Source: a virus. Taken from it: DNA of 24,732 nt. The stretch covers positions 1 to 24,732 of the IMG/VR virus record IMGVR_UViG_3300036766_000253. One strand, 5' to 3'. Of the stretch, positions 5,132-22,460 are shown in pieces (positions within the stretch are counted from its first letter, which is position 1; each line of letters begins with the position of its first letter). A program made the position numbers and the translations under genes. A model generated the notes under the pieces. It did no database searches, had not been told where the DNA came from, and saw only the letters and a program-made list of their open reading frames with translations.

Positions 5132-6315
5132 GCACCCACCTCGATAAACCAGATTGAGTCAACCAGTTTGACCTCGGAAAACGCCTCGTTGACGGCCCGC
5201 ATGACCCCCGGCCAGACCGGCGAGTAGTCATGGCCGCAGATGAGTTTACGGGTCTTCGGCAGCCAAGCGGCGATGTCAGCCTTCACGTCCTGGTAGTCGT
5301 GGCTGGCGTCGATGAACACCATGTCGGCTTGGTCGCCGTTGAGTTTCCCGGCCGCCTCCAGGGAGGTCATCTTGAGCACCTTGAGGTTCGGGTAATGCCC
5401 CACGTTCTTCAGAAACTCGGCATAGATGTCCTCTTCCTGGGCCAAGACGTGCATACCGCCTCCTCCGGGGCCGGGGCTGCCCTGGAAGTGGTCAACCGCC
5501 GTGACGTGGTGACCTGACTCTAGGAGTTCCTTTGTGGAACGGCCCTTCCAGGAGCCGATCTCGATGATGCCCCCGCTCATCCGTATGGCCGTCTCGCGTA
5601 GCCAGCGGCATTCCTCGGCGTCCATCCAGCCCTCGATAGGATTGCCGGACGCCTCCTGTTCCTGGCGCACCTTGGCCTTGACCGCCTCCCAATGTTGAAG
5701 GGTGAGGCCCTGCTTGCCGTAGTGGGCAAGGGGGATGCGGGGGTCTATCCAAAGCTCCAGGCCGAGCTTTTGCACCCGCCAGCAGAAGGCCACGTCCTCG
5801 CGCAATATGTTGGGCTGGCCGTAGTTGAGGAAGTCGAAGGGCTGGCCGAATTCGGTGCAGAACTCAGGGATGAAGGCTTCCATGACCCGCTTCGAGATGA
5901 GCATGAAGCCCCCCCCGGCTGCCTCGGCCCGGAAGGGCTCGGGAGGGTAGTCGGGGAGATTCTGCACGCCACGGGGCACGAAGCGGAAGACGTGAGCCCG
6001 GTAGGGATAGGCCCGGTCAACGTAGAGGCCGCTGAGCACGTCCCTGTTCTGCTCGAGCATCCCGGTGAGGATGTTCTGGGCGTCCGAGAGTAGGGCGGTG
6101 TCAGAGTCCACGAAGAGCAGCCAGTCCACGCCCATGTTCCGGGCAAGCCTCAGAGCCTCATTGCGGGAACGGTCGATGTAGGCCATTTGGGGCAGGATGA
6201 TGACCGGGGGGCGGCCAAAGTAAGCCTGTGCTTGAGCGGTCAGGCTCATCAGCGTGGCTACCGTCTCGCCCTTGAAGTCGTCTCGATTAGGACAGCAAAT
6301 TGCGATACTGGTCAC
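5128..6315 (-). CDS. Bifunctional glycosyltransferase (GT-A) - SAM-dependent methyltransferase fusion
   Basis: The product is about 395 aa with two enzyme domains. Residues ~1-205 are a GT-A, family-2-like glycosyltransferase: SIAICCPNRDD start, RSRNEALRLAR, the metal-binding DSD in WLLFVDSDTAL (~70-72), and a late EDVAFCWRVQKLGLELWIDP block. Residues ~245-395 are a class I methyltransferase of the Methyltransf_24 kind: SAM loop IIEIGSWKGRST (~250-261), acidic AVDHF after strand 2, MVFIDASHDYQDVKADIAAW and ICGHDYSP. The GTG at 6315 is preferred because AAGGGA lies just upstream; a TTG at 6348 has no clear ribosome site. Lying between coat and connector genes, it may decorate virion proteins or host surface glycans. 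Substrates are unknown. Confidence 0.85.
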   Translation of the reverse strand: MTSIAICCPNRDDFKGETVATLMSLTAQAQAYFGRPPVIILPQMAYIDRSRNEALRLARNMGVDWLLFVDSDTALLSDAQNILTGMLEQNRDVLSGLYVDRAYPYRAHVFRFVPRGVQNLPDYPPEPFRAEAAGGGFMLISKRVMEAFIPEFCTEFGQPFDFLNYGQPNILREDVAFCWRVQKLGLELWIDPRIPLAHYGKQGLTLQHWEAVKAKVRQEQEASGNPIEGWMDAEECRWLRETAIRMSGGIIEIGSWKGRSTKELLESGHHVTAVDHFQGSPGPGGGGMHVLAQEEDIYAEFLKNVGHYPNLKVLKMTSLEAAGKLNGDQADMVFIDASHDYQDVKADIAAWLPKTRKLICGHDYSPVWPGVMRAVNEAFSEVKLVDSIWFIEVGA

Positions 6316-6371
6316 GGTGTCCCTTGGTTCCTGCGGGGACGAGGCCAAAGCCCCGCCCCCGGCTAGAGGTT

Positions 6372-7076: not shown

Positions 7077-8276
7077 CTAATTCGTGACGCGCACAGCAAG
7101 CTCGGGCCAGAAGGTGACCGTCCCGAACAGGATGTCTGCGCGCCAGATTTCTTCGTAGGTTCTGATGTCCGGGCCGTGGCAGATGGCGATGGAGTAGCCC
7201 TTGTAGTTCCGGGTAGTGGCCTGGAGGCCGTCCGGGGCCTTCGGGGGCACCATGATCAAACCGAAGGCATTGCGGTGAAAGGCGATGTTCTGCCCGTAGG
7301 CGGTGCTGGCCGTGCCCTTGAGGGTGAGGGCGGCGGAATCGGCCGGCGAGCCGGAGACGGTCTGGTTGGCCCCGCTGGTGATGATGGCGGGGTAGATGGG
7401 GATGGTTGTGGCCCCCGAAGACGAGTCTGTGCAGTCCGCCGTGACCACGAAGGTCTGGAGTTCTCCGGTGGACTCCTTCGTAACGGGGTTGATCATGTAG
7501 ACGGCGGCGATGGTGAAGGTGTCACCCTTCTTGAAAACGCCGTAGCCTGATGTCCAGTTGTGGGTGTTGAGGTTGCTGCCGACCTGGCTGGCTCCGGTGA
7601 CATGGCCGCTGCCAGCATAGGCGCCGACGGTGTGGGTGGGGCAGTGAACCGACTCGATGACATCAAAGCCGGCGATGCGGGGCACTAGGCCCTCGGTGAA
7701 TGCCTTCCCGATGACGGCCTGCGGGTTGAACTGCGTGGGCAGTGAACTCGACAGGTCCGCGTAAGCCTTCGGGGTCAGGGCGAGGGTGCGGTCTGAGTCG
7801 GGACAGGCGTTGTAGGTGAGCAGCTTCCTGATCTCGGCCACGTCCGCATAGGAGTCGGGCGGGTCGGCAGCGGTGCCGCACCAGTTGGCGATGTCGTAGT
7901 AGCGGGCCAGGATGCTCAGCTCGATGTTGTTGGCCAGAGCCGAGGCGATGGGTTTGATGACGGTATCGCCGAAATCCTTGAGCGCGGCGCTACTCAGGGA
8001 ACGGTCCCAGCCGGTCAGGTCAATCCCCACCGACTTCCACTTGTCGATGTTGACGGTGATGCTGCCCTGGTTGATGGACTGCGTTTGGGTTAGCACAGGG
8101 CCGTCCTGGACGGTGAACTTGGGGGGCTTCCTCACGGTGAGTACGCCGCCCGAGTCTCGGGCCTTGAAGTCCCCCTCGTACTGCCGGTTCACCCGGCGCG
8201 CCAACTGAAGCTCGTTGTCCATGTAGTCCAACGCCATGTCGGCTACGAGGACAGGGGTAATCTGCGTATTAGCCAC
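7077..8276 (-). CDS. Major capsid protein, P22 gp5-like
   Basis: The 399-aa product fits the P22 coat protein family by length and sequence. It opens with NTQITPVLVADMALDYMDNE and continues with LARRVNRQYEGDFK, GGVLTVRKPPKF, the long-helix region DLTGWDRSLSSAALKDFG, an inserted-domain part GYGVFKKGDTFTIAAVYMIN, and a C-terminal core RNYKGYSIAICHGPDI...FGTVTFWPELAVRV. The GTG start has GGAGGAA upstream. The scaffold gene lies directly upstream, the standard pairing for HK97-fold capsid assembly. Confidence 0.93.
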   Translation of the reverse strand: MANTQITPVLVADMALDYMDNELQLARRVNRQYEGDFKARDSGGVLTVRKPPKFTVQDGPVLTQTQSINQGSITVNIDKWKSVGIDLTGWDRSLSSAALKDFGDTVIKPIASALANNIELSILARYYDIANWCGTAADPPDSYADVAEIRKLLTYNACPDSDRTLALTPKAYADLSSSLPTQFNPQAVIGKAFTEGLVPRIAGFDVIESVHCPTHTVGAYAGSGHVTGASQVGSNLNTHNWTSGYGVFKKGDTFTIAAVYMINPVTKESTGELQTFVVTADCTDSSSGATTIPIYPAIITSGANQTVSGSPADSAALTLKGTASTAYGQNIAFHRNAFGLIMVPPKAPDGLQATTRNYKGYSIAICHGPDIRTYEEIWRADILFGTVTFWPELAVRVTN

Positions 8277-8288
8277 GGTCTTCCTCCG

Positions 8289-9155
8289 TTAAGTCCCGGC
8301 ACGCGCCTTTCTCAGCGCCCCAATCCGCTCCTCGGACGAGAGCTTGGGGTCTCCGATGTCACGGCTACCCCCTCCCCCGGTGCCGACGGGCGTAATCGGG
8401 GCGGGCGCGGTAGTGGTCTTCTTGGTGGTTGCGGGTACGGCTGAGAGCTTGGCTTCCAGCCGGCCCATTTCCATGAACGCTCTGTTGAGAGGGAGGCTGG
8501 CGATCCGCGCCGCCTCCCTGGGGTTGGCGTAGAGGTGCTTTGCCATCGCTTCGGCGTGGTCACTCTCGACCAGGCCCTGCACGAGGGCCTGCGAGCCGGG
8601 GCCGGGGTTGTTCATGGCCGCCGTGATGACCGCGTGGGCCGCTTCGGGCACCTGGGGGTCTGCCTCACCCGCCTTGGATATGCGGCTGGTGAAGGTGCCA
8701 AGCCGCGCCTGCTGGTCTTTTTCCTGCTCGCGGTCGGCCAGACGGGCGTCCAGCTTGCGGTCCTGGAGCTTGTCGAGGTAGGCGGTGCGCGCCTCCTCAA
8801 ATTCCCCCACGGTGTAGTAGTCGCCGGGGCGGGGCGGTTGCAGCTCGCCCTCCGCGCTACGCGACGGCACAGGCTTCTCATCGGGGGGCTTGAAGCCCGC
8901 GGCGATGGCCCGGTCCCGCCAGGTGTCGCGGTCGGTTACGAGGTGCTTGATGCGCTGCTCGGCGCCAGAAGGTTTCGTCTTCCCCGAGGGGTCCGCCCCC
9001 TGCTCTGCGGTGGGTTCCGGGGCCTCTCCAGCGGGTGCCGACTCCGCTCCTTCTACGGCCGGTGCGGGCTCTGCGCCGCCCGTGGCGTCTGTCGGGGTTG
9101 CCGAGTCCCCAGGTTCGGCCTGCGGCTCAATAGCCGGGGTTGCATCGTCTGGCAT
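8289..9155 (-). CDS. Capsid scaffolding protein, P22 gp8-like
   Basis: The 288-aa product has the composition of a scaffold. Residues 1-65 are a disordered acidic Pro/Ala/Glu-rich leader. A basic helix follows (EQRIKHLVTDRDTWRDRAIA), then a long charged helical middle (FEEARTAYLDKLQDRKLDAR), the family-typical segment HLYANPREAARIASLPLNRA with FMEMGRLEAKL, and a basic C-terminal end that would contact the coat. AAGGAGGAAG precedes the ATG. It lies between portal and coat, as in P22. Its transcription must pass the terminator at 9181-9216. Confidence 0.88.
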   Translation of the reverse strand: MPDDATPAIEPQAEPGDSATPTDATGGAEPAPAVEGAESAPAGEAPEPTAEQGADPSGKTKPSGAEQRIKHLVTDRDTWRDRAIAAGFKPPDEKPVPSRSAEGELQPPRPGDYYTVGEFEEARTAYLDKLQDRKLDARLADREQEKDQQARLGTFTSRISKAGEADPQVPEAAHAVITAAMNNPGPGSQALVQGLVESDHAEAMAKHLYANPREAARIASLPLNRAFMEMGRLEAKLSAVPATTKKTTTAPAPITPVGTGGGGSRDIGDPKLSSEERIGALRKARAGT

Positions 9156-9425: not shown

Positions 9426-9513
9426 GTAGCACCTCCAGCAGCTTCCTTTTCACGGCCTCCAACTGCTTCAGGGCCTCGATAATCTGGCGTTCAGCTTCCT
9501 TGGACAAGGCCAC
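9403..9513 (-). CDS. Micro-ORF (36 aa), amphipathic helix, overlaps portal 3' end
   Basis: The GTG at 9513 lies inside the last codons of the portal gene, with GGGAGGG about ten bases upstream. TAG ends it at 9403. The product (ALSKEAERQIIEALKQLEAV, then KRKLLEVLRG) would be a single amphipathic, coiled-coil-like helix. It bridges portal and the 55-aa ORF with 23-base overlaps on each side, as coupled genes do. No family is recognised, and a leader-peptide role is possible. Confidence 0.5.
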   Translation of the reverse strand: MALSKEAERQIIEALKQLEAVKRKLLEVLRGRLQRI

Positions 9514-11596
9514 CTTGCGCTATCCCTCCCTGGTCGGCCGGGTGCATCCCCGGCGGCGCGTGAAGCTCCTTGAGCACCTGGATAACCACAGACCGCACCC
9601 CACTCTCGGTCAACTGGGCCTCCTGCTGTGCCTTGGCCTGTTCTGCCTTCAGTTTCTCAAGCTGCACCTGGGCCTGGAGCTTCTGTGTCTCCAACTTGGC
9701 CATGTTGAGCATCATCTCAGGCGACGGAGGCGGTGGCGGGGCCTGCTGGCCTTCCTGACCGGCCTCGGGCGGCAGGATGCCAGGGGGCAAGGTCTTCTTG
9801 AGGGCGTCCACATACTCGTCCGCGCCGGGGCAGTCCAGGTTCTTGGCGACGAAGTATTTGTCAACCGGGTTCATCTTGGCCGAGATACCCGCGAACTGGA
9901 GCAGTCGGTCGTAAGCCTCCTCGCGCTGGGTGGTGTAGGAGGGGCCTACCGATACCCTCACCGCATATTTGCCCCGGCCCAGGTGATTGAAGGGGGCATC
10001 GAGGCCGTCCTTGCTGATGAGGTCGGCCACCTTCTTCTTATCCACGCCCTGATAGCGCCTGGGGTCACGGGAAAGGCTCTCCTGGACATTCCTAGCCGTG
10101 GTGTTGATCGGGATGACCTGCTCGCTGCCGTCCTCGCCCCGCACCGTCACGTCGCGCTCGGTGTCGTAGATATGCGGGATGAGGTCTTGAATCACCCGGC
10201 CGCAGTGCTCGATGGTGGTGCTCAGGTTGTCGATGAAGTGGAAGGTGCCGACGTCGCTCTCCTGTTTGCGCTCCCGGATGGCCCGGCCCGAGGTCTCGTT
10301 TGAGGGGGCCCCCACGCTGGCCTTGAACATCCCCAGCGTATTCTCCACGTTCATCTCGGCCTGCCTGACCTCGGTGAGAAGGGCGGCCGGCACGGCGGGC
10401 GGGTCAACTCGGTGAGGGCGCTCTTTCCAGTCCGGGTCCGGGTTGAACTTCAGATAGGGGAAGTTTTCGGTGTGGGCGCCGGCATAATCCACCTCGAAGT
10501 TCTCAATCTGCTTGGGCGTAATCAGCCAAGTCGCCTTGGGGGCCAGGGCAATCGCCTCGGCCAATTCCGAGTTCCAGTAGTTGTAGAGGCTCTGGGCGTC
10601 GCGGGCTCTATTAATCAGGCCGGTTACATGGTCCTTGCCCTCGACGTTGACGACTTCGCCCTCGGCCACGAAGAGCGGGATATACTGGCCGGGCCAATCC
10701 TGCTCCTCGATGACTTCCGTGGCGGTGCAGACGTAGTGCTTGACCGTGTAGGTGACTGCCTCACGCTCCCGGAGGATGGTCACGGGCTCGGCCTCGGGCT
10801 GGTCGCTCGTCACTAGTGCCTGCACGTTGGCTGAAGAGACCACTGCCTCGGCCTCCTTTTTCTCCAGCACCGAGCCGTCGGACATGAGGCAGATGGTCTT
10901 GCGCTCGGCTACCCGCTCGAAATAGCCCGCCACGGTCACGGTGTCCTCGTCCGCGAACCAAAGGGTCTTGTCGAGCCCTTGGCCGGTGTCGAAGTCGGCC
11001 GAGGTGGGCGCCTTCGCCTTGGGATACTGCTCCTCGAACTCCTCCGTGAGCAGCTTGTCAATGATGAAGCCCCAAGCGGCGTCAGACCTGTCAATCTCGC
11101 GGGCTGCTGAGTCGAGGAAGGCGGCGAAGGGATTCTTGACGGGGGCCAGGTAAATCTCCTGCTCGAAGCTGTCAGGAGAGACGTAGCGGGTCAGCAGCCG
11201 CCAGGCCCCACGGCCACAGCGCACCACCATGTCGCCCGCCTGAGTGTAGATGAGCCCCGCCTTGGAGCGATACTGGATGTCTCTGACGATACCTTCAAGA
11301 TGACGGGCTATGTCGGGGTCGGCGTCGGCGCTGGCCGGCGAAACCTTGATCTCGGGCGTGTTGTGCCGGATATCGTTCGTAACCTGGTGGATGAACTTGT
11401 TGGTCAGGTCGATGGTCAGGACGGGACGATCCCGCTTGCGACGGCGCTCCAGAATCCCCGAGTCCCACTGGTTGTCCCCGCCTAGGCTGAACTTGAGGTC
11501 GTCGATCTGCGCCTTGCGGTTGTCAACCTCGGCGTCCACGGCCAGTTTGAACCGTCGGTGCATCCGGGCAAGGAGCTTTTCGTTCTTCTCGGGCAT
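9491..11596 (-). CDS. Portal protein, P22 gp1-like
   Basis: The 701-aa product matches the P22 portal type in length (P22 gp1 is 725 aa) and sequence: a basic helical start (LLARMHRRFKLAVDAEVDNR), FSLGGDNQWDSG, RPVLTIDLTNKFIHQVTNDI, a QAGDMVVRCGRGAWRLLTRY core, GAPSNETSGRAIRERKQESD and SLSRDPRRYQGV. The C-terminal ~100 residues are a Gln/Lys/Ala-rich helix (LETQKLQAQVQLEKLKAEQ), which would form the barrel seen in P22-like portals. It makes the dodecameric ring at the packaging vertex. Unusually, four adhesin-like genes separate it from TerL. Confidence 0.93.
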   Translation of the reverse strand: MPEKNEKLLARMHRRFKLAVDAEVDNRKAQIDDLKFSLGGDNQWDSGILERRRKRDRPVLTIDLTNKFIHQVTNDIRHNTPEIKVSPASADADPDIARHLEGIVRDIQYRSKAGLIYTQAGDMVVRCGRGAWRLLTRYVSPDSFEQEIYLAPVKNPFAAFLDSAAREIDRSDAAWGFIIDKLLTEEFEEQYPKAKAPTSADFDTGQGLDKTLWFADEDTVTVAGYFERVAERKTICLMSDGSVLEKKEAEAVVSSANVQALVTSDQPEAEPVTILREREAVTYTVKHYVCTATEVIEEQDWPGQYIPLFVAEGEVVNVEGKDHVTGLINRARDAQSLYNYWNSELAEAIALAPKATWLITPKQIENFEVDYAGAHTENFPYLKFNPDPDWKERPHRVDPPAVPAALLTEVRQAEMNVENTLGMFKASVGAPSNETSGRAIRERKQESDVGTFHFIDNLSTTIEHCGRVIQDLIPHIYDTERDVTVRGEDGSEQVIPINTTARNVQESLSRDPRRYQGVDKKKVADLISKDGLDAPFNHLGRGKYAVRVSVGPSYTTQREEAYDRLLQFAGISAKMNPVDKYFVAKNLDCPGADEYVDALKKTLPPGILPPEAGQEGQQAPPPPPSPEMMLNMAKLETQKLQAQVQLEKLKAEQAKAQQEAQLTESGVRSVVIQVLKELHAPPGMHPADQGGIAQGGLVQGS

Positions 11597-11597
11597 C

Positions 11598-12068
11598 CTA
11601 TTCCCAGACCACGGCGCGGATCGTGGCCGTCTTGGCGTTCCCCATGTTGGAGAAGGTGAAGGTCAGGGGGCCGTTAATGGGGGCAGCCAGCAGCACATCG
11701 CCCCCGGCGTTCAGGGCCGATTGAGTGACTGTGGCGCTGCGGTCGGTCCCACCGCCGTTGAGCAGGTCGGCCCCCCCCGAGTGGTCGGTGGCGGTGTAGT
11801 CCCACAGGGTAGTCGGGGCCGTGCTGCCAGGGTCGGACTCCACGCTCATCACGACGCCGTGAAAGCTGGTGCCGGTCGTGCCCGTGGCCGAGCCGTCGCT
11901 GTCGTCTGAGAGCACGGTGGCGGTGATGGTGTAGATGAGTCCGCCACCTGGCCGGTCAGCAGCATCACGGGGAAGGTCACCGGTGAAGGTGACACTGCTC
12001 CCCGCCCCCCAGGCAGGCCCCGCCGCCAGCAGTAGGACGATGAGTGCCCCCAAGATTGCACGTCTCAT
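11598..12068 (-). CDS. Small secreted-type beta-rich phage protein, unknown
   Basis: The 156-aa product begins MRRAILGALIVLLLAAGPAW with a signal cleavage expected near AWG or GAG (residues ~20-23). The mature ~135 aa is Gly/Thr/Ser-rich and beta-like (SSVTFTGDLP, GLIYTITATVLSDDSDGSA, DVLLAAPINGPLTFTFS, TATIRAVVWE). No family is recognised. AGGAGGG lies four bases before the ATG, and the portal starts one base after its stop codon. It is the last of four consecutive signal-bearing genes between TerL and portal. It could be a small virion decoration or spike-associated protein. Confidence 0.7.
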   Translation of the reverse strand: MRRAILGALIVLLLAAGPAWGAGSSVTFTGDLPRDAADRPGGGLIYTITATVLSDDSDGSATGTTGTSFHGVVMSVESDPGSTAPTTLWDYTATDHSGGADLLNGGGTDRSATVTQSALNAGGDVLLAAPINGPLTFTFSNMGNAKTATIRAVVWE

Positions 12069-12077
12069 GTTTCCCTC

Positions 12078-13316
12078 CTAGTGAATCGCTCCGCCGGAGA
12101 TTGTGCCGCCGTATCCCATTTGTGGGCCTGGACTTCCGCTCTGCCAGTCCGTCGGGCCAATCATGTGATTGCCAACAGCATCCACATTCGCGGGCGTGTC
12201 GGTGGTTATGCTGATGTCGTCCATGTATTCGGTCTGGGCCTGGGGAACACCACCGTTCCAATAAGTCATGAAGTAGATCGTATGGATATACCCGCCAGCA
12301 TCGCAGGAGGCGACGAAGCCTCCGTTCTTTTCAGCCTCAAGCACACCCTCTATCCACATTCGCATAATACTTGTAGAATCGTTGGTGAACTTGACGTACA
12401 TCTCAACGCAATGCCATTGGTCGGCGCCAAACGTAACCGGGGTTCCCGACTGACACTGGACCCGGTCGTCGTTAGAGGCGCAGTTGCCCCCTCCATATTC
12501 ACAATCTATTTGCGGATTGCCTATTCCCGCGCCGCATTCCGTAGTATCGGCACCCGCCGTTATAATGGATATACAGCCCTGTGGGTTATCATCAACCTTA
12601 TTTTTGCCGAAGCGCATGGTTTTGACTACGGGAATCGCAGTCCAATCCCAACCGGCGCCGGGGTCTTTGAAGTGATAATAGGCCCGCGACCACAACTCTT
12701 GCCCGACCGTGACAACCGAAGTAGGGGTTAGCATGCCACCGCAAGTAAGGCCCATGCCGTCGTTAAAGCCCGAGTCGCGGAGCTGGTGAACCATGTAGCC
12801 AGCACCCTTGCTATCGGGGTCGGTGCCATCGCTGAGACGCATATAGACGGTATTGCCAGAAAGGCTGTCATTGTTGCCTATGTTCCATTCCCCTGCGGCC
12901 AGGGAACCGACAGCATGCTGGTAGTTAAAGTAAATGGGGGCTCCTCCCCCTACTACCATGCGCTGAACTTGAGTCTCCGCCGCAAAGTGCAAAGCGGTGG
13001 GCACGGTATTATCGGTTTTAAGGACGTAATACTCTGTGGTCCCGCTGCCGCTGAGTATCCATTTGTAACTGTGCGCCGTATCAAGGGTGGTGTTTACCGG
13101 AGCGGGCCAAGCGATCTCACATGCCTTAGTGCCGGAGTGATGGGCATCGGTGGTGATGGTGGTCAGGGTGCCGGCGTAGTCCAGGGCATCGCTGCCCACG
13201 ACTGAGTTCTGGGCCTTCTGGCCGTCGTTGCCGGTCTCAAAGCCGGACGTGATGGTCCAGGCAAACGAGGGTGCGGGACTCAGAAGCAGAGCGATTATGA
13301 GCAGAAGTATCAGCAT
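12078..13316 (-). CDS. Secreted-type, Cys-rich, lectin-like receptor-binding protein
   Basis: The product is 412 aa from the ATG at 13316, which overlaps the upstream TGA (TGATG). A TTG one codon earlier is the alternative. Residues 1-20 are a signal sequence (LILLLIIALLLSPAPSFA). The mature part looks like a concanavalin-A/LamG-type beta sandwich: an opening GFETGN, GTKACEIAWP, WSRAYYHFKDP, a core DQWHCVEMYVKF, MRMWIEGVLEAEKNGG and a late MTYWNGG...YMDDISI. Cysteines are frequent (about ten between residues 240 and 345), which suits disulphides in an oxidising place. The DNA is more AT-rich than its neighbours. Glycan binding is inferred from fold-like features. Confidence 0.7.
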   Translation of the reverse strand: MLILLLIIALLLSPAPSFAWTITSGFETGNDGQKAQNSVVGSDALDYAGTLTTITTDAHHSGTKACEIAWPAPVNTTLDTAHSYKWILSGSGTTEYYVLKTDNTVPTALHFAAETQVQRMVVGGGAPIYFNYQHAVGSLAAGEWNIGNNDSLSGNTVYMRLSDGTDPDSKGAGYMVHQLRDSGFNDGMGLTCGGMLTPTSVVTVGQELWSRAYYHFKDPGAGWDWTAIPVVKTMRFGKNKVDDNPQGCISIITAGADTTECGAGIGNPQIDCEYGGGNCASNDDRVQCQSGTPVTFGADQWHCVEMYVKFTNDSTSIMRMWIEGVLEAEKNGGFVASCDAGGYIHTIYFMTYWNGGVPQAQTEYMDDISITTDTPANVDAVGNHMIGPTDWQSGSPGPQMGYGGTISGGAIH

Positions 13317-14110
13317 CAAGCACCCAAATCAGAGGTGTAGAGTTGAACGGCATCGAACCAACCCGCGCCGGTAGACCAGTCGGCACCAGAGTAGTTGCCG
13401 ACTGTGTAGCTCGTTGGGTTTGCCCCGATGTCGTCTAGGGAAGTGTTGGTGATTGACTGCCAGGCTTGAGCCCCAACCTTGACGCGCATGATGTCAGTTC
13501 CGTCCGCCCCCGATAAGTCCCAAGCGAATTGAATCAAACACCAGCCATTGGCATCATCGTTGTCAGCAATCGTATCCGTGCCCGTATTGTAAACAGCACC
13601 ACTGCCATCGTCAATAATCAACCGGATGACGTTTAGGGCTGTCACATAGTAGCATTTTATACAGTGGGTATCATCGACCTTGATTGTAAAAATAAAGCAG
13701 TCGTTTTCTGCGACAGGTTTATAATAGCATTTGAACGAACCCTTTTCGGTCAGGTCCACCCAACTGCCGGTTGTATTGATTACCGCTCTTTCGGCGTAAT
13801 AATCAAACTTCAGGGCGTAGGCCCCATCGTAGAAGTTGCCGGCCGAATTATCATACGTTGCTCCGCTGACCGTCCAGGATTTATAGGTGCCCGAATCCGA
13901 ACAACCACAGGTGCCGTTAGCGTTCGTGGTGGCGTCGTCGGCATTCTCACAGTGGTGGGAGTAGGCCAACGTGCCTGAGCAGTCGTCGCAGGACGGTGGG
14001 GCGGCGGGTTGTGCCGTGGCGCCTAGGTAATAGTTCCCTCGCGCTAGGCACAGACAGGCCAGCAGCAAAACAAGAAGGAAACTAGAAAGCGTTGCTAAGA
14101 GTGCGCGCAT
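13316..14110 (-). CDS. Secreted-type, LamG-like Cys-rich adhesin
   Basis: The 264-aa product starts MRALLATLSSFLLVLLLACL, a signal sequence with a possible weak lipobox (LLAC) or cleavage near residue 24. A Cys-rich knot follows (SCDDCSGT..., HHCENA..., GTCGCSDSG). The rest is a LamG-like beta sandwich (YDGAYALKFDYYAERAVINT, GSFKCYYKP, NVIRLIIDDGSGAV, WCLIQFAWDLS, WFDAVQLYTSDLG). GAGG lies six bases before the ATG. Its 5' end overlaps the 500-aa gene by 29 bases, and its stop overlaps the next start. The central part is visibly AT-richer than the phage average. It probably arose with the 412-aa protein as a tandem lectin pair. Confidence 0.7.
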   Translation of the reverse strand: MRALLATLSSFLLVLLLACLCLARGNYYLGATAQPAAPPSCDDCSGTLAYSHHCENADDATTNANGTCGCSDSGTYKSWTVSGATYDNSAGNFYDGAYALKFDYYAERAVINTTGSWVDLTEKGSFKCYYKPVAENDCFIFTIKVDDTHCIKCYYVTALNVIRLIIDDGSGAVYNTGTDTIADNDDANGWCLIQFAWDLSGADGTDIMRVKVGAQAWQSITNTSLDDIGANPTSYTVGNYSGADWSTGAGWFDAVQLYTSDLGA

Positions 14111-15584
14111 ATTCGACCTCGATACCCACCAGGTTCACGTCCTGGGCGTAGTCGTCATTGGCATTCGCCACCGTCCGGTTCACGTTGAACATGACCAGCT
14201 CCCCGGCTGCCAGGTTGGTGACCACCACGGCGGCCCAAGGGCCGTAGACGATGTCATACTGGGCATGGCCGTTCAGATCTGCCGTGGCTGAGGCTGAGGC
14301 GGTGCCTAGAGTGCAGCCCATCGCGTCGGAGTCACCATTCGAGCAACCCGCCAGGCTGAAGCAGACCCCCTCGTTTGAGGCCGGGGCCGTGCTGTTTGAG
14401 ATGACGTAGACGGGTCGCCAGTTGAGGGTGTTGGCCGTGGCCTCGTAGAGGTCTTGCGGGGCCTGCCAGGGGAACTCCAGGTCTTCGGCTGAGGATGGGT
14501 CGAAGGCCCGTGCGTTGACCTTCCTGGTGCTCGTCAGGGTCGCTATCGCGGCAGGTGCCGCCGTGCCGTCAATCATGTAGCCGACCGGGATAGGGTCAGC
14601 CTCGACGACGTAGTTATTGCCAGCCGTGCCATCGACGAGGATAGGAACAGTGCCATTATAAGCAGGCACGGTAACGTTATAATCGGCGCCCAGAGTTGCC
14701 GGGACGGTCAGGCTGACCTTGTTGTTGCCGTTGGCGGGCCACTCAAAGAGGTCGTAAATCGTGCTGGCACCGGCCACCCTGGTTACGGTCAAACTCTTGA
14801 GAGTCACGTCGCCGTCGGCATCGACGATGAAGCCGCCGGCCGCAGCACTGATAGAACCGATCCCGCTCAGGTTGTTGGAGTCGTCGCAGATTGCCCCTGA
14901 GCCCTGGACGGTCTTGTTGTCGGTGCCGTTGGCCCTGATTAGGCTGTGGTCCGTGGAGGTAGCCGGGCCAAGGACGTCGCCGCCACCCGCCGGGGTGGTA
15001 TATCCGCCCTGCCCATTGAGAAAGTGAGCCACGTTGTTGTCGAGCATCGGGCAGAGGCCGTGGGCAGAGGTAGAGACGTTCAGGTCGGTATTAGCGTCGG
15101 GCGCACCGAAATCGTCAAGTTTGCGAGAGGTGGCTGCTTTGCCATCAAGTTGGCCCTGGAGGGCACCCGTCACCCCGTCGAGGTAGCCGAACTCGGTAGT
15201 AGAGACCGCCGAGCCCTCCGCTGTGGCCACGCCAGCCGTGAACCGCACCCAGCCTCCCCAGGCGCTCGCGTCCGCGTCCAGGCCCCCGCAGTTGGCCAGG
15301 AGGAGGCCGTAGGAGCCACCACCCGAGGCAGCGGTCTTGACCCGCAGGTGCCCGGCTGGTGACTCGCTGAGGTAGAGGGTTTGGTGCAAGCTGAGGCTGA
15401 GGTCGCCCAGGATGAGGAAGAGCCGGTGAGGACTCGACTTGCCAGCCTCTGCGACGACTGAGGCTTCCAGCACCGCGCTGCTCTCGGGGATTACGACCCC
15501 GGCGGCGCGGGCTCGCTCGACAGGCAGGCAGAGCAGGGCCAAAAGAACGAAGAGCGCGAGGGCGAGAAGAAGAGTGCGTTTCAT
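14082..15584 (-). CDS. Signal-peptide tail fibre-like virion protein
   Basis: The 500-aa product opens with a Sec-type signal (MKRTLLLALALFVLLALLCL, cleavage near ARA-AG at ~28). The body carries fibre features: ...TTEFGYLDGVTGALQGQLDG (~127-147), a repeat type common in phage fibres, then STSAHGLCPMLDNNVAHFLN, a Gly/Asp-rich middle, and a C-terminal domain with KVNARAFDPSSAEDLEFPW, TLNWRPVYVIS and ELVMFNVNRTVAN. It follows TerL at once (TAAGCCATG). A structural or receptor role fits the modules. The signal peptide and the location before the portal are unusual. Confidence 0.78.
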   Translation of the reverse strand: MKRTLLLALALFVLLALLCLPVERARAAGVVIPESSAVLEASVVAEAGKSSPHRLFLILGDLSLSLHQTLYLSESPAGHLRVKTAASGGGSYGLLLANCGGLDADASAWGGWVRFTAGVATAEGSAVSTTEFGYLDGVTGALQGQLDGKAATSRKLDDFGAPDANTDLNVSTSAHGLCPMLDNNVAHFLNGQGGYTTPAGGGDVLGPATSTDHSLIRANGTDNKTVQGSGAICDDSNNLSGIGSISAAAGGFIVDADGDVTLKSLTVTRVAGASTIYDLFEWPANGNNKVSLTVPATLGADYNVTVPAYNGTVPILVDGTAGNNYVVEADPIPVGYMIDGTAAPAAIATLTSTRKVNARAFDPSSAEDLEFPWQAPQDLYEATANTLNWRPVYVISNSTAPASNEGVCFSLAGCSNGDSDAMGCTLGTASASATADLNGHAQYDIVYGPWAAVVVTNLAAGELVMFNVNRTVANANDDYAQDVNLVGIEVEYARTLSNAF

Positions 15585-15587
15585 GGC

Positions 15588-16931
15588 TTACCCCAAGGCC
15601 CCGCCGAAACGAGGCATGGCGTTGAGAACGTCAGTGACGGAACGGGCGGGCAGCGGAACCGAGTCGGCGAAGCCCAGAGCCAGTTCCCCGAAACCGTCAG
15701 CGGCGTGGCTGCTCCAGTCGTGGACAGGCTTGGCCTTGAACACCTGGTTTCGCTCATCCCACTCCTTGCGGTAGTGCTCCAGGGCGTCGATGCCCTTCTC
15801 GCAGGCTGCCTCGTCGAAATAGCACTGGGGCAGGATGTTGCGAACGGCCTCGATGCGGTCTGCCGGGTCAAGTTTCTTGCCGATGAGCACCGGCTTAAGG
15901 CCCAAGCTGATCGCCACTTCCTTGCGGCTCTTGCCTGTGCCAAGCTCGCGGACCTCACCGTCGTGGGGGAAGTGAACAGCCCCATAGGCGTAGGGTTTGT
16001 CCTTGAGTACCTTGGCATAGTGAACTAGGCCCTCACCGCTGTTCTCGTAGTAGTCCACCACCCGAATCTCGCGCACCACCCGCTGGGCGAACCAGATAGC
16101 CATCGAGTCGTCCATGCCCAAGTCCCAGAAGGTTTCAACTGGTATCTGGGGCGCGTAAGGCACCCTGCCGATCCGGTTCTCAGCCCTGGCCCGGTGAATC
16201 AGCTCGGCGTAGTAGGCACCCTTAATGTCAGCGTCGTCCCACACGCCATCTCGAAGCTGCTGACGTTCCACGTCCGGCAGGTTTGCAAGCCAGGCACGGT
16301 AATCGGCCTTCTCCTTGAGAGTCATCAACGTATTGTCGGCCAACGTGGCGGGTATGAAAGAACGAGTCTTCACAGTGCCATCGTCGTCCTTGAGTTCAAT
16401 CACCTTGTCACGGCAACAAGCCACGAAGCGCTCACGCACCCACTTATGCCCGATGTTGCCGGGATTCGATGCAGCACGGGCTAAAGTCTTCCAGTTACCA
16501 TGCGGACGTAGGCGAGAGAGCAGATAGAGATATTGGAAGTTCGTGAGGTGCGTCAGTTCATCAAAGGCGATGTCGTCATACTCGGCCGATTGATACTGGT
16601 AAACGTCGCGGTCAGCCTCGCAATAACCAAACTCCTGAATCGAGCCGTTGGGGAACTCCCAGCGGCCCTTGCTCTCAATCCACTTGCCGAAAGGCCCCCA
16701 TGTCGTGAGCGAGACGCGGATGAGAGACTTGTCGAGTTCCTTGAACGTGCGCCGCAGCGCCAAGCCCACACTTCCAGGGCAGGACAGCCGGCGGTGAAGG
16801 GCGAAGGCCAGTAGCCCTCTTGACTTCCCCGGCCCCGCCTGGCCGCCGTAAAGCACCTCATCGACCTCGGCCAGGTCGAACAGCATCCGGTGCTGCTTAG
16901 GGGTCAGGGGAATCTTAAACTGCTCAGGCAT
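15588..16931 (-). CDS. terL: Terminase large subunit (packaging ATPase-nuclease)
   Basis: The product is 447 aa from the ATG at 16931, which has GAGAGGG three bases upstream; a longer GTG start at 16973 is less likely. The ATPase domain has Walker A GGQAGPGKS (~29-37), Walker B DDIAFDE (~119-125) and the coupling motif ASNPGN (~154-159). The nuclease domain has the first acidic strand WDLGMDDS (~269-276) and the last catalytic Asp in HAADGF (~409-414). This is a complete RNase-H-fold packaging motor. The gene overlaps TerS by 8 bases. Confidence 0.95.
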   Translation of the reverse strand: MPEQFKIPLTPKQHRMLFDLAEVDEVLYGGQAGPGKSRGLLAFALHRRLSCPGSVGLALRRTFKELDKSLIRVSLTTWGPFGKWIESKGRWEFPNGSIQEFGYCEADRDVYQYQSAEYDDIAFDELTHLTNFQYLYLLSRLRPHGNWKTLARAASNPGNIGHKWVRERFVACCRDKVIELKDDDGTVKTRSFIPATLADNTLMTLKEKADYRAWLANLPDVERQQLRDGVWDDADIKGAYYAELIHRARAENRIGRVPYAPQIPVETFWDLGMDDSMAIWFAQRVVREIRVVDYYENSGEGLVHYAKVLKDKPYAYGAVHFPHDGEVRELGTGKSRKEVAISLGLKPVLIGKKLDPADRIEAVRNILPQCYFDEAACEKGIDALEHYRKEWDERNQVFKAKPVHDWSSHAADGFGELALGFADSVPLPARSVTDVLNAMPRFGGALG

Positions 16932-17445
16932 CGGCCCTCTCGTGGACGACGACGAAGGTGATTTGCTTCGCACCGTCCTTGCCGCCTATCTCAAGAGATT
17001 GCGTCGGCTTGCCCAGGCCCCGATTCAGCAGTTCAACGCATGCCGCCACGCTCGCCTTGGGGTTGTTGGAATCCCGCCAATACTCCAGCCGCCTGAGAGC
17101 CTTGGGGCAGGCCGAGAGTGCCAGGCGCTTCACCTCGTGCTCAATCTCAGCGGCTTCCTTTGATTTTCCGGTGGGGTTGCCAGACTGACCGGGCTTGAAA
17201 GGACGACCAGGAATGCGGCGCTGGGGCTTGCTGGTCGCAGCGGGTGCAGAAGAAGCCCCTTGGTTTTCCCCCCCAGTCCCCCCTTTTCCTGCTACGCAAC
17301 TAATCTTTTCGCGGGAATCAAGCACAGAAAGAGCAAGATCGGGACCAGATACGCCAGGCGCCGTGCCAGAAACGGGCGGTGATCCCGCATTACAGTGACT
17401 CGGACGTTTAGCGCTTTTGGCTTTTGGCGTCTTTGCCTTCACCAT
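16924..17445 (-). CDS. terS: Terminase small subunit-like, DUF5681-type
   Basis: The 173-aa product has a long low-complexity basic N-terminus (~90 residues), then the GRPFKPGQSGNPTGKSK box at ~79-95 that defines DUF5681-type proteins. A helical region with ...ACVELLNRGLGKPTQSLEIG follows. Proteins with this box are commonly found directly before TerL and are taken as small terminase subunits that recognise the packaging site. The start has no good ribosome site; a CTACA-cgc-TGTAG palindrome lies just upstream and might be an operator or control the leader. Confidence 0.75.
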   Translation of the reverse strand: MVKAKTPKAKSAKRPSHCNAGSPPVSGTAPGVSGPDLALSVLDSREKISCVAGKGGTGGENQGASSAPAATSKPQRRIPGRPFKPGQSGNPTGKSKEAAEIEHEVKRLALSACPKALRRLEYWRDSNNPKASVAACVELLNRGLGKPTQSLEIGGKDGAKQITFVVVHERADA

Positions 17446-18273: not shown

Positions 18274-18539
18274 ACATCCGCGTCCAGACGGTTTACGCTC
18301 TAACAGAAAAGCCGCTCATCACAGAGAATCAAGATGGCTCTGTCACTTTGCACGACACAGATTTCACCGGACCCGGTGGTTTTAGTATCCAATTTCCCGG
18401 TCGAGAACCTTGGACTTTAGAAGTGGCCCATGAGCTAGTGGCAGCGCTAGAACGGAGCATGGGCGGCAAAGAGACGGCAACTTCCGTTATCCGAGCGGAC
18501 ACGGAGAAGTATCGGGGGGCTTACCCAATGCCCCGCTAG
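18270..18539 (+). CDS. Hypothetical protein (89 aa), last gene of plus-strand cassette
   Basis: The ATG at 18270 is coupled to the previous stop (ATGA), with AAAGGAGAGG upstream. The product (MNIRVQTVYALTEKPLITEN, GSVTLHDTDFTGPGGFSIQF, PWTLEVAHELVAALERSMGG) looks like a small alpha/beta protein: a beta-rich first half and a helix near residue 52. No family is recognised. The gene ends eight bases before the converging minus-strand operon. Confidence 0.65.
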   Translation: MNIRVQTVYALTEKPLITENQDGSVTLHDTDFTGPGGFSIQFPGREPWTLEVAHELVAALERSMGGKETATSVIRADTEKYRGAYPMPR

Positions 18540-18546
18540 TTGGGTA
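18522..18546. terminator. Possible weak bidirectional terminator between converging genes
   Basis: A perfect 7-bp inverted repeat (TACCCAA / TTGGGTA, 11-base loop) covers the end of the plus-strand cassette and the gap to the converging gene. The arms are AT-rich and there is no real U-tract, only TTAA, so termination would be weak. Its position exactly at the convergence point is the reason to list it. Confidence 0.3.
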
Positions 18547-18930
18547 TTAACTGCCCTGCTCAATTCGTCCTGGGCTCTCCTGGGGGCGCTGACGGCCCTT
18601 CTCTGCCGCCAGCACTGCTCGCACTTTAGCCAGCCTGGCATTCTCGTATCTCCGCCGGGCTATCCAGTTGTCGATCTTGGGCCTCATCGGACCGTTGAGT
18701 TCGGGCGGCTGCCAATCCTCGGGGGCGTCTGCTCGCATATCCACAAACGCCCTACAGGCATGACTCGCGAGGAACTTCTTGGCTGCTAGCCGTAGCCCCT
18801 CATCGTACTTGCTACGGGCCAGGATTATCGCCCGTGAGTCGTCGGCCTTCGCGCATCCGACGAAGCGGCAATGGTCTTGGCTCTTAATTCTTAGAGTTCG
18901 GCAGTGGTAGCAATCGCCGCAGGTATTCAC
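18547..18930 (-). CDS. Small Cys-rich protein, possible zinc binder
   Basis: The 127-aa product begins MNTCGDCYHCRTLR, with further Cys in DHCRFVGCAK (Cys at 4, 7, 10, 21 and 26). The spacing suits a zinc-binding N-terminal knuckle. The rest is basic and helical with a WIARRRYENARLAKVRAVLA segment. The GTG start abuts the TGA of the nuclease-like gene. No named family fits; nucleic-acid binding is plausible. It is the last gene of the early operon. Confidence 0.65.
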   Translation of the reverse strand: MNTCGDCYHCRTLRIKSQDHCRFVGCAKADDSRAIILARSKYDEGLRLAAKKFLASHACRAFVDMRADAPEDWQPPELNGPMRPKIDNWIARRRYENARLAKVRAVLAAEKGRQRPQESPGRIEQGS

Positions 18931-19284
18931 TCAGATTTTCTCAACCTCCCAGCCGCCGCCGTCCTTCTTGGAGCGGGCCCGGACAATCTGGAACGCCAGG
19001 GGAAACATCCTGGCCGCAATCCTCACCTTAGCCTTGGCATCGTCTCGAAACCATCCGCCCTTCACTTCGTGAGCCTCTAGCTGGCCGTCGGGGAGCATAA
19101 TCAGGAAATCCGGTGTGTATCTAACGTCGGGCCCGAGCTTGAGAGTAACAGCCTCGAACCGATACCAGACTATCTCTCCGGCCTTCTGGAGCAGGTCGAG
19201 GTGCTGCTGATAGGCGCCCTCCGTCTTGTTGAGAGTTCCTCTGCGAAACCGGCCATGGGCCATGGGGCGCTGGGGGATGGTCAT
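18931..19284 (-). CDS. PD-(D/E)XK-type phage nuclease-like protein (DUF1064-like)
   Basis: The product is 117 aa from the ATG at 19284, which overlaps the TGA of the 27-aa membrane peptide; a longer TTG start at 19350 would bury that peptide. Signature: AHGRFRRGTLNKTEGAYQQH, then WYRFEAVTLKLGPDVRYTPD, then the EAHEVKGGW strand and a KKDGGGWEVE end. The glutamate of the first helix, the PD, and the E-V-K triplet are the expected PD-(D/E)XK site. Such proteins occur in phage replication or recombination regions and are thought to act on branched DNA; the substrate here is not shown. Confidence 0.8.
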   Translation of the reverse strand: MTIPQRPMAHGRFRRGTLNKTEGAYQQHLDLLQKAGEIVWYRFEAVTLKLGPDVRYTPDFLIMLPDGQLEAHEVKGGWFRDDAKAKVRIAARMFPLAFQIVRARSKKDGGGWEVEKI

Positions 19285-19364
19285 GGCTGAATGACGACGT
19301 GAAGGAAGTAGATAACCCCCATAACAATCCAGGTCCACACAACCACCCAAACTATGCGCTCCAT
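19281..19364 (-). CDS. Single-TM micro-peptide (27 aa)
   Basis: The ORF runs from ATG at 19364, with AAGGGAG about eight bases upstream, to a TGA that overlaps the nuclease start (ATGA). The peptide MERIVWVVVWTWIVMGVIYF plus a short HVVIQP tail is essentially one transmembrane helix. It sits beside a second single-TM micro-ORF upstream. Function is unknown; small phage membrane peptides may affect lysis or host membrane proteins. Confidence 0.6.
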   Translation of the reverse strand: MERIVWVVVWTWIVMGVIYFLHVVIQP

Positions 19365-19407
19365 CGCTTAGTCTCCCTTCTCCCGCACGACAACCTCTTC
19401 CCCTCCC

Positions 19408-19503
19408 CTACCGGTTCGCTGTCCACGCCAGGAACAGCATAAAAATCAGGCCCCCAAACCATGCCCACATGACAAACTCCATACTAACGTCCGGAACGTT
19501 CAC
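19408..19503 (-). CDS. Single-TM micro-peptide (31 aa)
   Basis: The GTG at 19503 follows an excellent AGGAGGGG site, and the ORF ends with TAG at 19408. The peptide (VNVPDVSMEFVMWAWFGG, then LIFMLFLAWTANR) has an N-terminal polar part and one hydrophobic helix. It lies between the initiator-like gene and the second micro-peptide. The ribosome site strongly suggests it is translated. No family is recognised. Confidence 0.6.
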   Translation of the reverse strand: MNVPDVSMEFVMWAWFGGLIFMLFLAWTANR

Positions 19504-19512
19504 TTTCCCCTC

Positions 19513-20412
19513 CTACCCGCCGGTCGGGGCGGGGCTAGCCTGTTCTTTTATCGCCTTCTCCCGTTCATCAAAGTCGGCGAATATTCTCTTAACCTCAGCC
19601 CGTTCTTTCTCCTGCTCTTCTGGCGTCAACCCTTCCCACCTTTCCCATTCAGCGTCATACTCGGCCTGCCGCTCTTTCTCCTCCTTCGAGACATAAGGCC
19701 CTTGGGGCTTAGCGATGCCCTTAAGCTGTCCATATTTCTCGGCCTGGAGCATCCATTTGGCGATTCGGCTCCGGCACCCCTGGACGCTCTTGGGCTTCCT
19801 CTCCGGCTTGCCCGTGAGCCAGACATGGCACTCGATGAGCTGCTTGGCTAAGTCGGCCTCTCCGTAAATCTTGACCATCTCCGAGAAGAACTTGTCGGGA
19901 GGTAGGGGGCGAAGGGCCGTGGCCCTCGCCAAGGCACCCTTGACGTTTTGCGGCAAGGTGCCCTCTTCCCCTTCTTTTTTAAGGGCCGGAAGAGGGGAAG
20001 GGGATTCAGAATGTAAGGAAGGGGAATGTAAGGAAAGAGCCGGGCTAGGCAATGCCTTTTCACGGCTAGGCAATGCCTTGGCTTTGCCTAGTTCTAACGC
20101 AGGGATAACACTGGCGGATTCGCGGGGGTGGGGGCTTTGGTGCTCTTTGAATGCGAGCACCTGGACATACTTCTCCTCCCCAACCTCATAGATGGCGATG
20201 AAGTCCTTGGCCGCCAGATCGTCCAGCATCTTCTCAGGGTCGGCGCGGTCGTAGGGAAGGATTTCGGCCTTCATCTTCTTGGGCCGACATTCCAAGCGTC
20301 CCTCGCGGTCGGCCATGCACCACAGGCCCTCAAAGAAGATGCGCGTGAGCGGATGTAGTTCCGCCAAGACCTCGTTTTTGAAGAATCCTGGCTTGAGATT
20401 CCGTGCTCGCAT
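19513..20412 (-). CDS. Replication initiator-like protein
   Basis: The 299-aa product has an N-terminal domain of the phage replisome-organiser type: MRARNLKPGFFKNEVLAELH, PLTRIFFEGLWCMADREGRL, ECRPKKMKAEILPYD, and a helix-turn-helix-like DLAAKDFIAIYEVG. This domain usually binds origin DNA. A Pro/Ser/Leu-rich linker (~110-150) follows, then a C-terminal helical part with FFSEMVKIYGEADLAKQLIE and SRIAKWMLQAEKYGQL, and a charged tail. The linker is encoded by repeated DNA that looks like iterons, the same layout as lambda O. No helicase gene is seen beside it. Confidence 0.75.
   Translation of the reverse strand: MRARNLKPGFFKNEVLAELHPLTRIFFEGLWCMADREGRLECRPKKMKAEILPYDRADPEKMLDDLAAKDFIAIYEVGEEKYVQVLAFKEHQSPHPRESASVIPALELGKAKALPSREKALPSPALSLHSPSLHSESPSPLPALKKEGEEGTLPQNVKGALARATALRPLPPDKFFSEMVKIYGEADLAKQLIECHVWLTGKPERKPKSVQGCRSRIAKWMLQAEKYGQLKGIAKPQGPYVSKEEKERQAEYDAEWERWEGLTPEEQEKERAEVKRIFADFDEREKAIKEQASPAPTGG
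20009..20091. repeat. Iteron cluster inside the initiator gene, candidate replication origin
   Basis: Two exact 16-base copies of GGCTAGGCAATGCCTT lie at 20043-20058 and 20064-20079 (period 21), and an 11-of-12 inverted copy GGCTTTGCCTAG lies at 20080-20091. Each copy has a near-palindromic core AGGCA-a-TGCCT. Two 12-base copies of GAATGTAAGGAA lie at 20009-20020 and 20024-20035, with purine-rich flanks, and an A/T run lies at about 19974-19982. The block encodes the low-complexity linker of the initiator-like protein. In lambda and relatives the origin is inside gene O in just this way. Confidence 0.6.
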
Positions 20413-20457
20413 TTACGCCCCCGCGAGAGGTAGAGAGGGGCCTACCCCAAAAGAGTC

Positions 20458-21231
20458 CTACTTAAGAATTCTCCGGCCTATCCATTCCGCCTTATGGGTG
20501 ATGACCGCATTGCCTGTTTGACGGCAGGCGGACCGGAAACTGACGCCTCCGGTATATCCATCAGGCAGCCCCGTGAGACGTTCTCGTTCCACTCGCGCAA
20601 GGATTCGCACTCCTCGTCCGGGCTCGAAAACGTAATTGTCGCGGCTGTCCATCCGGTAGGGGTGGGTAGTAAGACACGCCACCGCCTCCCCCGCCTCAAG
20701 CAGCGCCTGACGATCCCGCACATCGCTCTCGCAGTCAGAAAACGCTCGGGCGGGGCAGCGCCCGGAGGAAGCAAGCATCCCGACAAGGAACTGACGGCGT
20801 CGAGCCTGGGCCGTGATAAAGGCACCCTCCAGTTCAAGGGCCGTGGTGGAATAACCCAAGCACTCAAGCTGCCAAGCGCAGTCGTCGAGGTCGGGGCTGG
20901 GGACGTTTTCGCGGAGCACCCATAGAGGCCGTAGAAAGGACACCCACCGCAGGAATTCGGGCCAGAGGTCTCCTTGTTTGTCGCGTCCGTGGATAGAGCC
21001 AGCACGACTCCTGATTGGGCAGGGGTCGCCGCCAGCGATGAGGTCAACCCGTTCAACCGTGGAGAGTTCAACCCGCCTTGCATCTCCGTATTTTCTGGTC
21101 TGCGGCCAATGGTTGTTGAGCACATGGAGACAGGCACGATCATTCTCGACCTGCCACCGGCACACCATCCCGGCCCGCTCCAGGCCAAGGTCAAGGCCGC
21201 CGCTACCCGCGAAGAGGCTGCCGAAGGTCAC
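20458..21231 (-). CDS. DNA (cytosine-5-)-methyltransferase
   Basis: The 257-aa product has the ordered C5-methyltransferase motifs: I FGSLFAGSGGLDLGLERAG (SAM binding), IV GGDPC with the catalytic Cys at ~71, VI RENVPSPD with the catalytic Glu at ~108, VIII QARRRQFLVG, and X near the end with TGNAVI. Motif IV reads GGDPCPIRSRAG rather than the common PPCQ; the nucleophile is kept, and I have seen this variant in phage enzymes. It is short, with a minimal target-recognition region. No cognate restriction gene is visible, so protection of phage DNA from host restriction is the likely role. The start is GTG. Confidence 0.9.
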   Translation of the reverse strand: MTFGSLFAGSGGLDLGLERAGMVCRWQVENDRACLHVLNNHWPQTRKYGDARRVELSTVERVDLIAGGDPCPIRSRAGSIHGRDKQGDLWPEFLRWVSFLRPLWVLRENVPSPDLDDCAWQLECLGYSTTALELEGAFITAQARRRQFLVGMLASSGRCPARAFSDCESDVRDRQALLEAGEAVACLTTHPYRMDSRDNYVFEPGRGVRILARVERERLTGLPDGYTGGVSFRSACRQTGNAVITHKAEWIGRRILK

Positions 21232-21244
21232 GACCGCCCGCCCG

Positions 21245-21433
21245 TCAAGGCTTTTCTGCCTTCAGCGCCGCCGCAATCTCCCGTTTAGCCTCACGTTCCG
21301 AGGCAGCCACGGCGACGGCGATGCGACCGTCTTCGGCCATCGTGACCCAAGCCACGTGCAGGTCAGGATGCTCCCGGCGCAGGGTTAAGAGAACCTTCCC
21401 CATGTTCTTCTGGGTGGCTAGGCGGACGGTCAT
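21245..21433 (-). CDS. Small hypothetical protein (62 aa)
   Basis: The ATG at 21433 overlaps the previous TGA (ATGA), with GGGAGGA touching it. The product (MTVRLATQKNMGKVLLTLRR, HPDLHVAWVTMAEDGRIAVA, SEREAKREIAAALKAEKP) looks like a small beta-hairpin plus helix. It has no family I recognise. It is translationally linked to its neighbours in the early operon. Confidence 0.65.
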   Translation of the reverse strand: MTVRLATQKNMGKVLLTLRREHPDLHVAWVTMAEDGRIAVAVAASEREAKREIAAALKAEKP

Positions 21434-21699
21434 TCCTCCCCCTCCCAAATCACGATGGCCTTGCCGGGGCCGTCTGTGAGAAGGAATATTCCCCAATGCT
21501 GTCCCTCTTCATCCTCACTTTCCACGATGGCTTCCACCACCCTCACCCCCGACGCCGGGTCTTTTGCGGCCTCGTGGAGGGCGGTGATAAGGGTGTGTGC
21601 ATCGTATTCCCAAATAGTAGGACATCCCATTGCTGGTTGAAGTAACTCTTTCCAGTAATGTTCGTGGAACCAGCCTGCCAGCCATTCACGAAACTTCAT
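21430..21699 (-). CDS. Hypothetical acidic protein (89 aa)
   Basis: The ATG at 21699 is coupled to the upstream TGA (ATGA). The product (MKFREWLAGWFHEHYWKELL, TIWEYDAHTLITALHEAAKD, EGQHWGIFLLTDGPGKAIVI) has a Trp-rich amphipathic N-terminus and a beta-rich acidic C-terminus. No domain is recognised. It belongs to a chain of small coupled ORFs. Confidence 0.65.
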   Translation of the reverse strand: MKFREWLAGWFHEHYWKELLQPAMGCPTIWEYDAHTLITALHEAAKDPASGVRVVEAIVESEDEEGQHWGIFLLTDGPGKAIVIWEGEE

Positions 21700-22267: not shown

Positions 22268-22272
22268 TGGCA

Positions 22273-22446: not shown

Positions 22447-22460
22447 GCCCCCTCCTTCAC

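Follow-up and report, generated by a model that had tools for sequence, protein, structure and literature searches.

The window analysed here is a stretch of 24,732 nucleotides that makes up one whole IMG/VR virus record (IMGVR_UViG_3300036766_000253), possibly a partial genome. Its minus strand carries a P22-like structural operon with the gene order TerS-like, TerL, P0001, P0002, P0003, P0004, portal, scaffold and coat, followed by tail accessory genes (P22_Tail-4, 9.8e-8; head closure phrog_578, 3.5e-100) (Table 1). The genes for portal, coat, scaffold and tail accessory proteins are all of P22 type and in order, which places the phage among the P22-like podophages. Beyond the tail accessory genes, near the other end of the window, lies the tail fibre gene P0010. 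The structural operon also encodes a methyltransferase-like protein (PF13578, 8e-15). One genome scan returned a Patescibacteria contig alone.

Gene calls and the profile matches of TerL and portal confirm that four consecutive genes lie between the two, as had been proposed in a sequence-only reading of the window. Three bases separate TerL from P0001, P0001 overlaps P0002 by 29 bases and P0002 overlaps P0003 by four, and gaps of nine bases and one base precede P0004 and the portal gene, respectively. The four genes are real, translationally coupled and arranged like one operon. As the genes are coupled and the cassette recurs in other phages, a contig artefact is unlikely. The gap between TerL and portal measures 3,991 bp in the window versus -25 to 1,412 bp in 66 P22-like relatives; a short gap is usual in P22-like phages, although not strictly defining, and the window departs from it. 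None of the 66 P22-like loci in which TerL and portal are both visible has a cassette of signal-peptide genes in the gap, where the only scan-positive ORF is one of 65 aa (L162). At 0.60 in P0002 and 0.65 in P0003, GC3 is below that of the portal, scaffold and coat genes (about 0.80-0.86). This suggests recent import of that part of the cassette but is an indication only, since the early genes of the window are also lower in GC3.

Table 1. Coordinates of the cassette, its surroundings and related features in other loci (window positions unless a locus is given).
Feature	Coordinates	Strand	Description
TerS-like	16924-17445	-	Position and weak DUF5681 match only
TerL	15588-16973	-	Upstream cassette border; phrog_979, 3e-45
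P0001	14082-15584	-	500 aa; predicted signal peptide, fibre protein
P0002	13316-14110	-	264 aa; predicted signal peptide with possible lipobox LLLA↓C
P0003	12078-13319	-	413 aa from TTG, 412 aa from the next codon, ATG; C-terminal motif
P0004	11598-12068	-	156 aa; predicted signal peptide, small domain
Portal	9491-11596	-	Downstream cassette border; P22_portal, 5.6e-157
Scaffold	8289-9155	-	
Coat	7077-8276	-	P22_CoatProtein, 4e-48
Methyltransferase-like	5128-6348		PF13578
P0010	1312-2508	-	398 aa tail fibre; predicted signal peptide, head-binding domain, phrog_13989
P0011	915-1292	-	125 aa putative lipoprotein (LLVA↓C), adjoins P0010
vir555_00059	L006:9906-11480		C-terminal motif
BK063671 (vir555) gene row	38140-43780 and across the origin (L006:6463-12103)		Signal-peptide genes
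L011 protein	L011:8117-9229		C-terminal motif
L011 protein	L011:9579-9959		C-terminal motif
L012 lipoprotein	L012:12680-13396		Beside or within cassette
L013 protein	L013:12990-14738		C-terminal motif
P26218_24	L014:4718-5227		169 aa; signal-peptide gene
L137 (MW202483) genes	18423-22450		Fibre-type genes
L151 protein	L151:319-2421		700 aa; signal peptide, beta-helix
L230 tailspike	L230:2632-5046		Signal peptide, head-binding domain
L230 protein	L230:5063-5557		Signal peptide
L230 module protein	L230:5591-7735		Stalk module
L230 protein	L230:7746-8474		Similar to vir555_00058
L231 protein	L231:8393-10303		Signal peptide, CBM_4_9, PF14099; C-terminal motif
L233 protein	L233:8614-10065		Beta-helix; C-terminal motif
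L235 lipoprotein	L235:10784-12424		Beside or within cassette
L235 protein	L235:12385-13617		Similar to L011:8117-9229

Hydrophobic export signals had been suggested for all four proteins. A rule-based scan, which combines a net-positive n-region, an uncharged 10-residue core and an AxA-like site or lipobox, gave strong calls for P0001 (..RARA↓AG), P0002 (the possible lipobox) and P0004 (..AWG↓AG), and the N-termini of these three are convincingly of Sec type. P0003 (..SFA↓W) shows both the hydrophobic core and the AxA-like site; what it lacks is a basic n-region, and the missing positive charge is the sole reason why it fails the scan. Basic n-region, hydrophobic core and cleavage site or lipobox were likewise found together in P0010. 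The scan called P0010 and P0011 as signal-peptide and lipoprotein genes, respectively, both of which were absent from the original list of export-type N-termini. A further call in the window, at 24176-24505, depended on moving the start of the gene; it is probably a false positive. Shine-Dalgarno-like sequences stand before P0002 (GAGG) and P0004 (AGGAGG), so that their signal regions are probably translated; the one before P0001 is weak. In two background sets the scan was positive for 39 of 845 genes (4.6%) and 32 of 976 (3.3%), many of them doubtful. At 4.6%, four positives out of four would arise by chance with a probability of about 5e-6 and three out of four with about 4e-4, figures that are rough because the genes are not independent. 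In a calibration on Rhodoferax phage P26218, one of 44 genes was positive, and the genome paper gives the same count, one gene, by SignalP (PMC4657236), the comparison being one of counts.

Fibre-like sequence is real in P0001, which contains a stalk module (GGFxVDADGDVxxKSxT) at about residues 240-315 and a C-terminal domain in common with vir555_00057. For P0002 and P0003, the proposal of two Cys-rich LamG/concanavalin-A lectins finds weak support in part. Both are rich in Cys (12 and 9 residues, respectively), yet numbers in the predicted mature cassette proteins are of mixed parity, so that Cys counts do not prove disulphides. Pfam and PHROG scans of P0001-P0004 gave no match above cut-off. 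P0003 aligned with the ConA-type polysaccharide lyase family PF14099 at E=0.0014 (19.0 bits, below the curated cut-off of 29.9). It is homologous (33% over 215 aa, E=6e-26) to a signal-peptide protein of locus L231 that carries CBM_4_9 (7e-7) and PF14099 (25.9 bits, E=1e-5). A ConA-type fold is thus weakly supported for P0003 itself and better supported through this homologue. P0002, without a family match to LamG/ConA or any other domain in Pfam and PHROG, is lectin-like by layout only, and its likeness by eye to vir555_00058 was unsupported by BLAST. Single-sequence AlphaFold models (pLDDT 31 for P0003 and 34 for P0002) were too low in confidence to use, and a profile of P0003 and its L231 homologue matched no solved structure. 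P0004 is weakly similar to the signal-peptide protein L230:5063-5557 (E=0.002), in an alignment that takes in the signal peptides. No recognised virion-attachment domain was found in P0001-P0004. Scans of viral contigs with P0003 or P0001 alone retrieved no relatives, and tblastn against annotated phages yielded two partial matches for P0001 and none for P0002, P0003 or P0004.

An attachment domain is present in P0010, which consists of a predicted signal peptide, a tailspike head-binding domain (about residues 30-115) and a tail-fibre C-terminal domain; MKRLSALLLVLTLLVGLSIPALA precedes DTSLLPVPKQQF. The profile of the P0010 family matches the tailspike head-binding domain of PDB 7eeq with E=8.8e-16, and as single sequences P0010 and the L230 tailspike match it at 0.087 and 0.0068, respectively. 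The same domain occurs in known head-binding tailspikes and fibres (PDB 7eeq, 9vyg, 9vyh) and in the fibres of Rhodoferax phage P26218, Xanthomonas phage PBR31 and phage DSL-LC05. Ordinary head-binding fibres, however, begin with the domain (P26218, MATLLPEGKQSF; DSL-LC05, MPAVSLSPVAGAGWQFF), whereas P0010 and the L230 tailspike have about 25-30 extra signal-peptide residues before it. Among the 17 P0010 homologues in the loci examined, that of L230 is the only other one with a signal peptide in front, and in nearly all others the domain starts at about residue 2-15. In P0010 the domain would come to lie at the N-terminus only if the signal were cleaved. Thirteen columns are invariant across the aligned domains with and without a signal, and virion binding therefore seems to be kept behind the signal. 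The adjoining P0011, for which no family match was found, could be a receptor blocker or part of a spanin.

When the cassette was looked for in related metagenomic phages, the same arrangement was found to recur. The C-terminal half of P0001 matches vir555_00057, and a scan with both retrieved L011, L012 and L013. These proteins are connected with L025 by a stalk module about 70 residues long. The module lies outside the signal region, and a scan with it alone added L229, L230, L231, L233 and L235, five of the eleven phages. The module is thus present in the window and ten other uncultured phages, podophages as well as siphophages, usually at the normal tail-fibre locus. Homology to the module was required, as the bare motif VDADGDV proved non-specific (signals in just 6 of 64 motif ORFs). 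The module protein has a strong signal peptide in nine of the eleven phages versus a background of 3-5%. In L230, TKRIFILFVLLFFPVSSFAGG stands upstream of the first standard start, and the protein probably has a signal peptide as well, if its start is ACG. The L235 protein has an acidic N-terminal membrane segment, not a standard signal, and a lipobox-like stretch about 70 residues in.

L025 and L229 end at the fibre. All nine phages not cut off there (the window, L006, L011, L012, L013, L230, L231, L233 and L235) have further signal-peptide genes beside or near the module protein, of LamG-like, beta-helix, lyase-like and tailspike types. Runs of at least three consecutive signal-peptide genes occur in the P0001-relative loci L006, L011, L012 and L013; among about 210 other loci, a contig of a bacterial chromosome (L138) is the only one with such a run. 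The row in L006 comprises five genes, of which the fifth is unannotated and runs across the origin. In this record (BK063671) the row follows an ordinary T7-type fibre; the recorded host is Methanomicrobiales, yet the gene content looks like that of a T7-type podophage. Elsewhere the cassette occupies the canonical fibre slot. In L231 it follows a lambda gpJ-like protein (phrog_31, 2e-108), in L233 it stands just before an endolysin (phrog_315) and in L012 it comes after a tape-measure region. The insertion between TerL and portal is peculiar to the window phage and is not the key feature. The reading of the genes as an exported cassette of receptor-binding type in the virion operon fits well.

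Several components are common to different cassettes: besides P0003 and its L231 homologue, vir555_00058 resembles a protein of L230 (2e-15) and a protein of L011 resembles one of L235 (3e-11). Beta-helix domains occur in L233 and L151, and lipoproteins in the window (P0011), L012 and L235. The motif [STF]G[GAVY]x[VILMSA][KNH] forms the C-terminus of seven cassette proteins that differ in kind (GGTISGGAIH in P0003). It is found on no other of about 2,290 genes scanned, a count to be read with the motif having been derived from the seven carriers themselves, and it is possibly an attachment tag. The L151 beta-helix protein is encoded upstream of TerL in a P22-like phage. Another P22-like phage (L137) has fibre-type genes between portal and scaffold, among them an 844-aa fibre without a signal peptide.

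We propose that in the window phage, as in a broader group of uncultured tailed phages, some or all parts of the receptor-binding apparatus are encoded as proteins for export through the host Sec machinery. Late in the infection, fibres, tailspikes and glycan-binding or -cleaving proteins would pass through the inner membrane and be freed of their signal peptides. They would then fold away from the reducing conditions of the cytoplasm and, upon lysis, join the tail adaptors of finished virions. The genes carry predicted export-type N-termini, which recur with one fibre module, and in two phages a head-binding domain behind the signal; from this pattern we infer export itself, arrival in virions and joining at lysis. 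That exported fibres join virions at lysis is the reading we favour, tentatively and at somewhat less than an even chance, mainly because the invariant residues of the head-binding domain are kept behind the signal. In extracts, tailless particles take up P22 tailspikes, and a P22-like virion could thus feasibly be completed after lysis. The broader proposal of a class of tailed phages that complete their virions outside the cytoplasm, by Sec export, periplasmic or surface folding and addition at lysis, perhaps held by the common C-terminal motif, is more doubtful. To our knowledge, no tailed phage assembles by this route. Export would not be needed for every adsorption protein, since the T7-type fibre of vir555 and the gpJ-like protein of L231 have no signal.

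Exported adhesins might instead act as surface decoys that remain periplasmic or attached to the infected cell, where they occupy or digest receptors. Superinfection would thereby be prevented and progeny kept from sticking to the dying host. Receptor-blocking phage lipoproteins such as T5 Llp are established, lipoproteins lie beside or in several cassettes (P0011, L012, L235), and masking would be served by the presence of several binding proteins in one cassette. We consider this unlikely, as a conserved head-binding domain behind the signal would be purposeless in a pure decoy and the four to six different proteins per cassette exceed the number used by known blockers. The window cassette also differs from the Llp/Cor type in its four larger genes with at most one lipoprotein, although P0011 could qualify. 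An equally low probability is given to soluble glycan-active proteins, i.e. beta-helix, polysaccharide-lyase-like and CBM-containing lectins or enzymes whose action would loosen the capsule or matrix around the infected cell and aid the spread of progeny. The CBM_4_9 and PF14099 domains of the L231 protein and the beta-helices of L233 and L151 point in this direction. So does WceF of Pantoea stewartii, an exported enzyme with a phage-tailspike-like beta-helix fold that acts on glycans, although it is a bacterial gene with a Tat signal, outside any phage (PMC7949094). No catalytic residues were identified in the cassette proteins, and export of the stalk fibre and the head-binding tailspikes would be left unexplained. 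Decoys and glycan-active proteins could both apply, to different cassette members.

Still less probable is the capture of genes for secreted host adhesins together with their signals, the genes then serving the host cell in lysogenic conversion, or that the signals are simply irrelevant. The low GC3 of P0002 and P0003 would agree with such passengers, and exported phage-borne proteins near tail genes exist, e.g. lambda Lom. Against this, most of the 11 phages have a signal on the protein with the viral stalk module, in two of them a signal precedes a virion-specific domain, and the cassettes are situated in late structural regions. The sequence-only reading had also considered N-terminal hydrophobic anchors used in the virion. 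For such anchors, or for assembly segments that are never exported, the membrane segment of the L235 module protein, not signal-like, could be cited. A layout of n-, h- and c-regions with AxA-like sites or lipoboxes recurs across many proteins, the same N-termini stand on lipoproteins and on lectin-like and polysaccharide-lyase-type proteins, and they are common to phages with different tail types. A buried anchor is thus very unlikely and the least likely of the three readings offered at the outset.

Among known systems, the exported endolysin Lys44 of phage fOg44, which has a Sec signal (reviewed in PMC6116005), resembles the Sec export favoured here in that late proteins of a tailed phage pass through host Sec during infection, in our case as predicted from sequence. 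Lys44-type proteins, however, are lysis enzymes rather than fibres or lectins. P26218_24, from a P22-like Rhodoferax phage that has been isolated, is a single signal-peptide gene near the tail fibre, unlike the multi-gene cassettes; it had no match in any other phage record searched and offers a way to study exported fibre-locus proteins in a cultivable phage. The products of the phage genes lambda Lom, T5 Llp and phi80 Cor, some of which lie next to tail genes, are directed to the envelope, but they are small single barrels or lipoproteins rather than multi-gene cassettes of fibres and lectins. A literature search found no report of signal-peptide tail-fibre cassettes; it covered open-licence papers only, so that this absence is weak evidence. 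The parts (tailspikes, lectin- and lyase-like domains, signal peptides) are known, and as far as the open-licence literature shows their combination as a recurrent cassette is undescribed.

Assembly of tailed phages is regarded as an entirely cytoplasmic process. If the proposed export holds true, it would constitute a new route of virion maturation with access to disulphides and periplasmic chaperones or, alternatively, a programme encoded by the phage for decorating the infected cell's surface; either possibility is open to direct testing. A further caution is that some signal-peptide proteins in viral contigs, annotated at present as adhesins of the host or as auxiliary enzymes, may be phage receptor-binding proteins.
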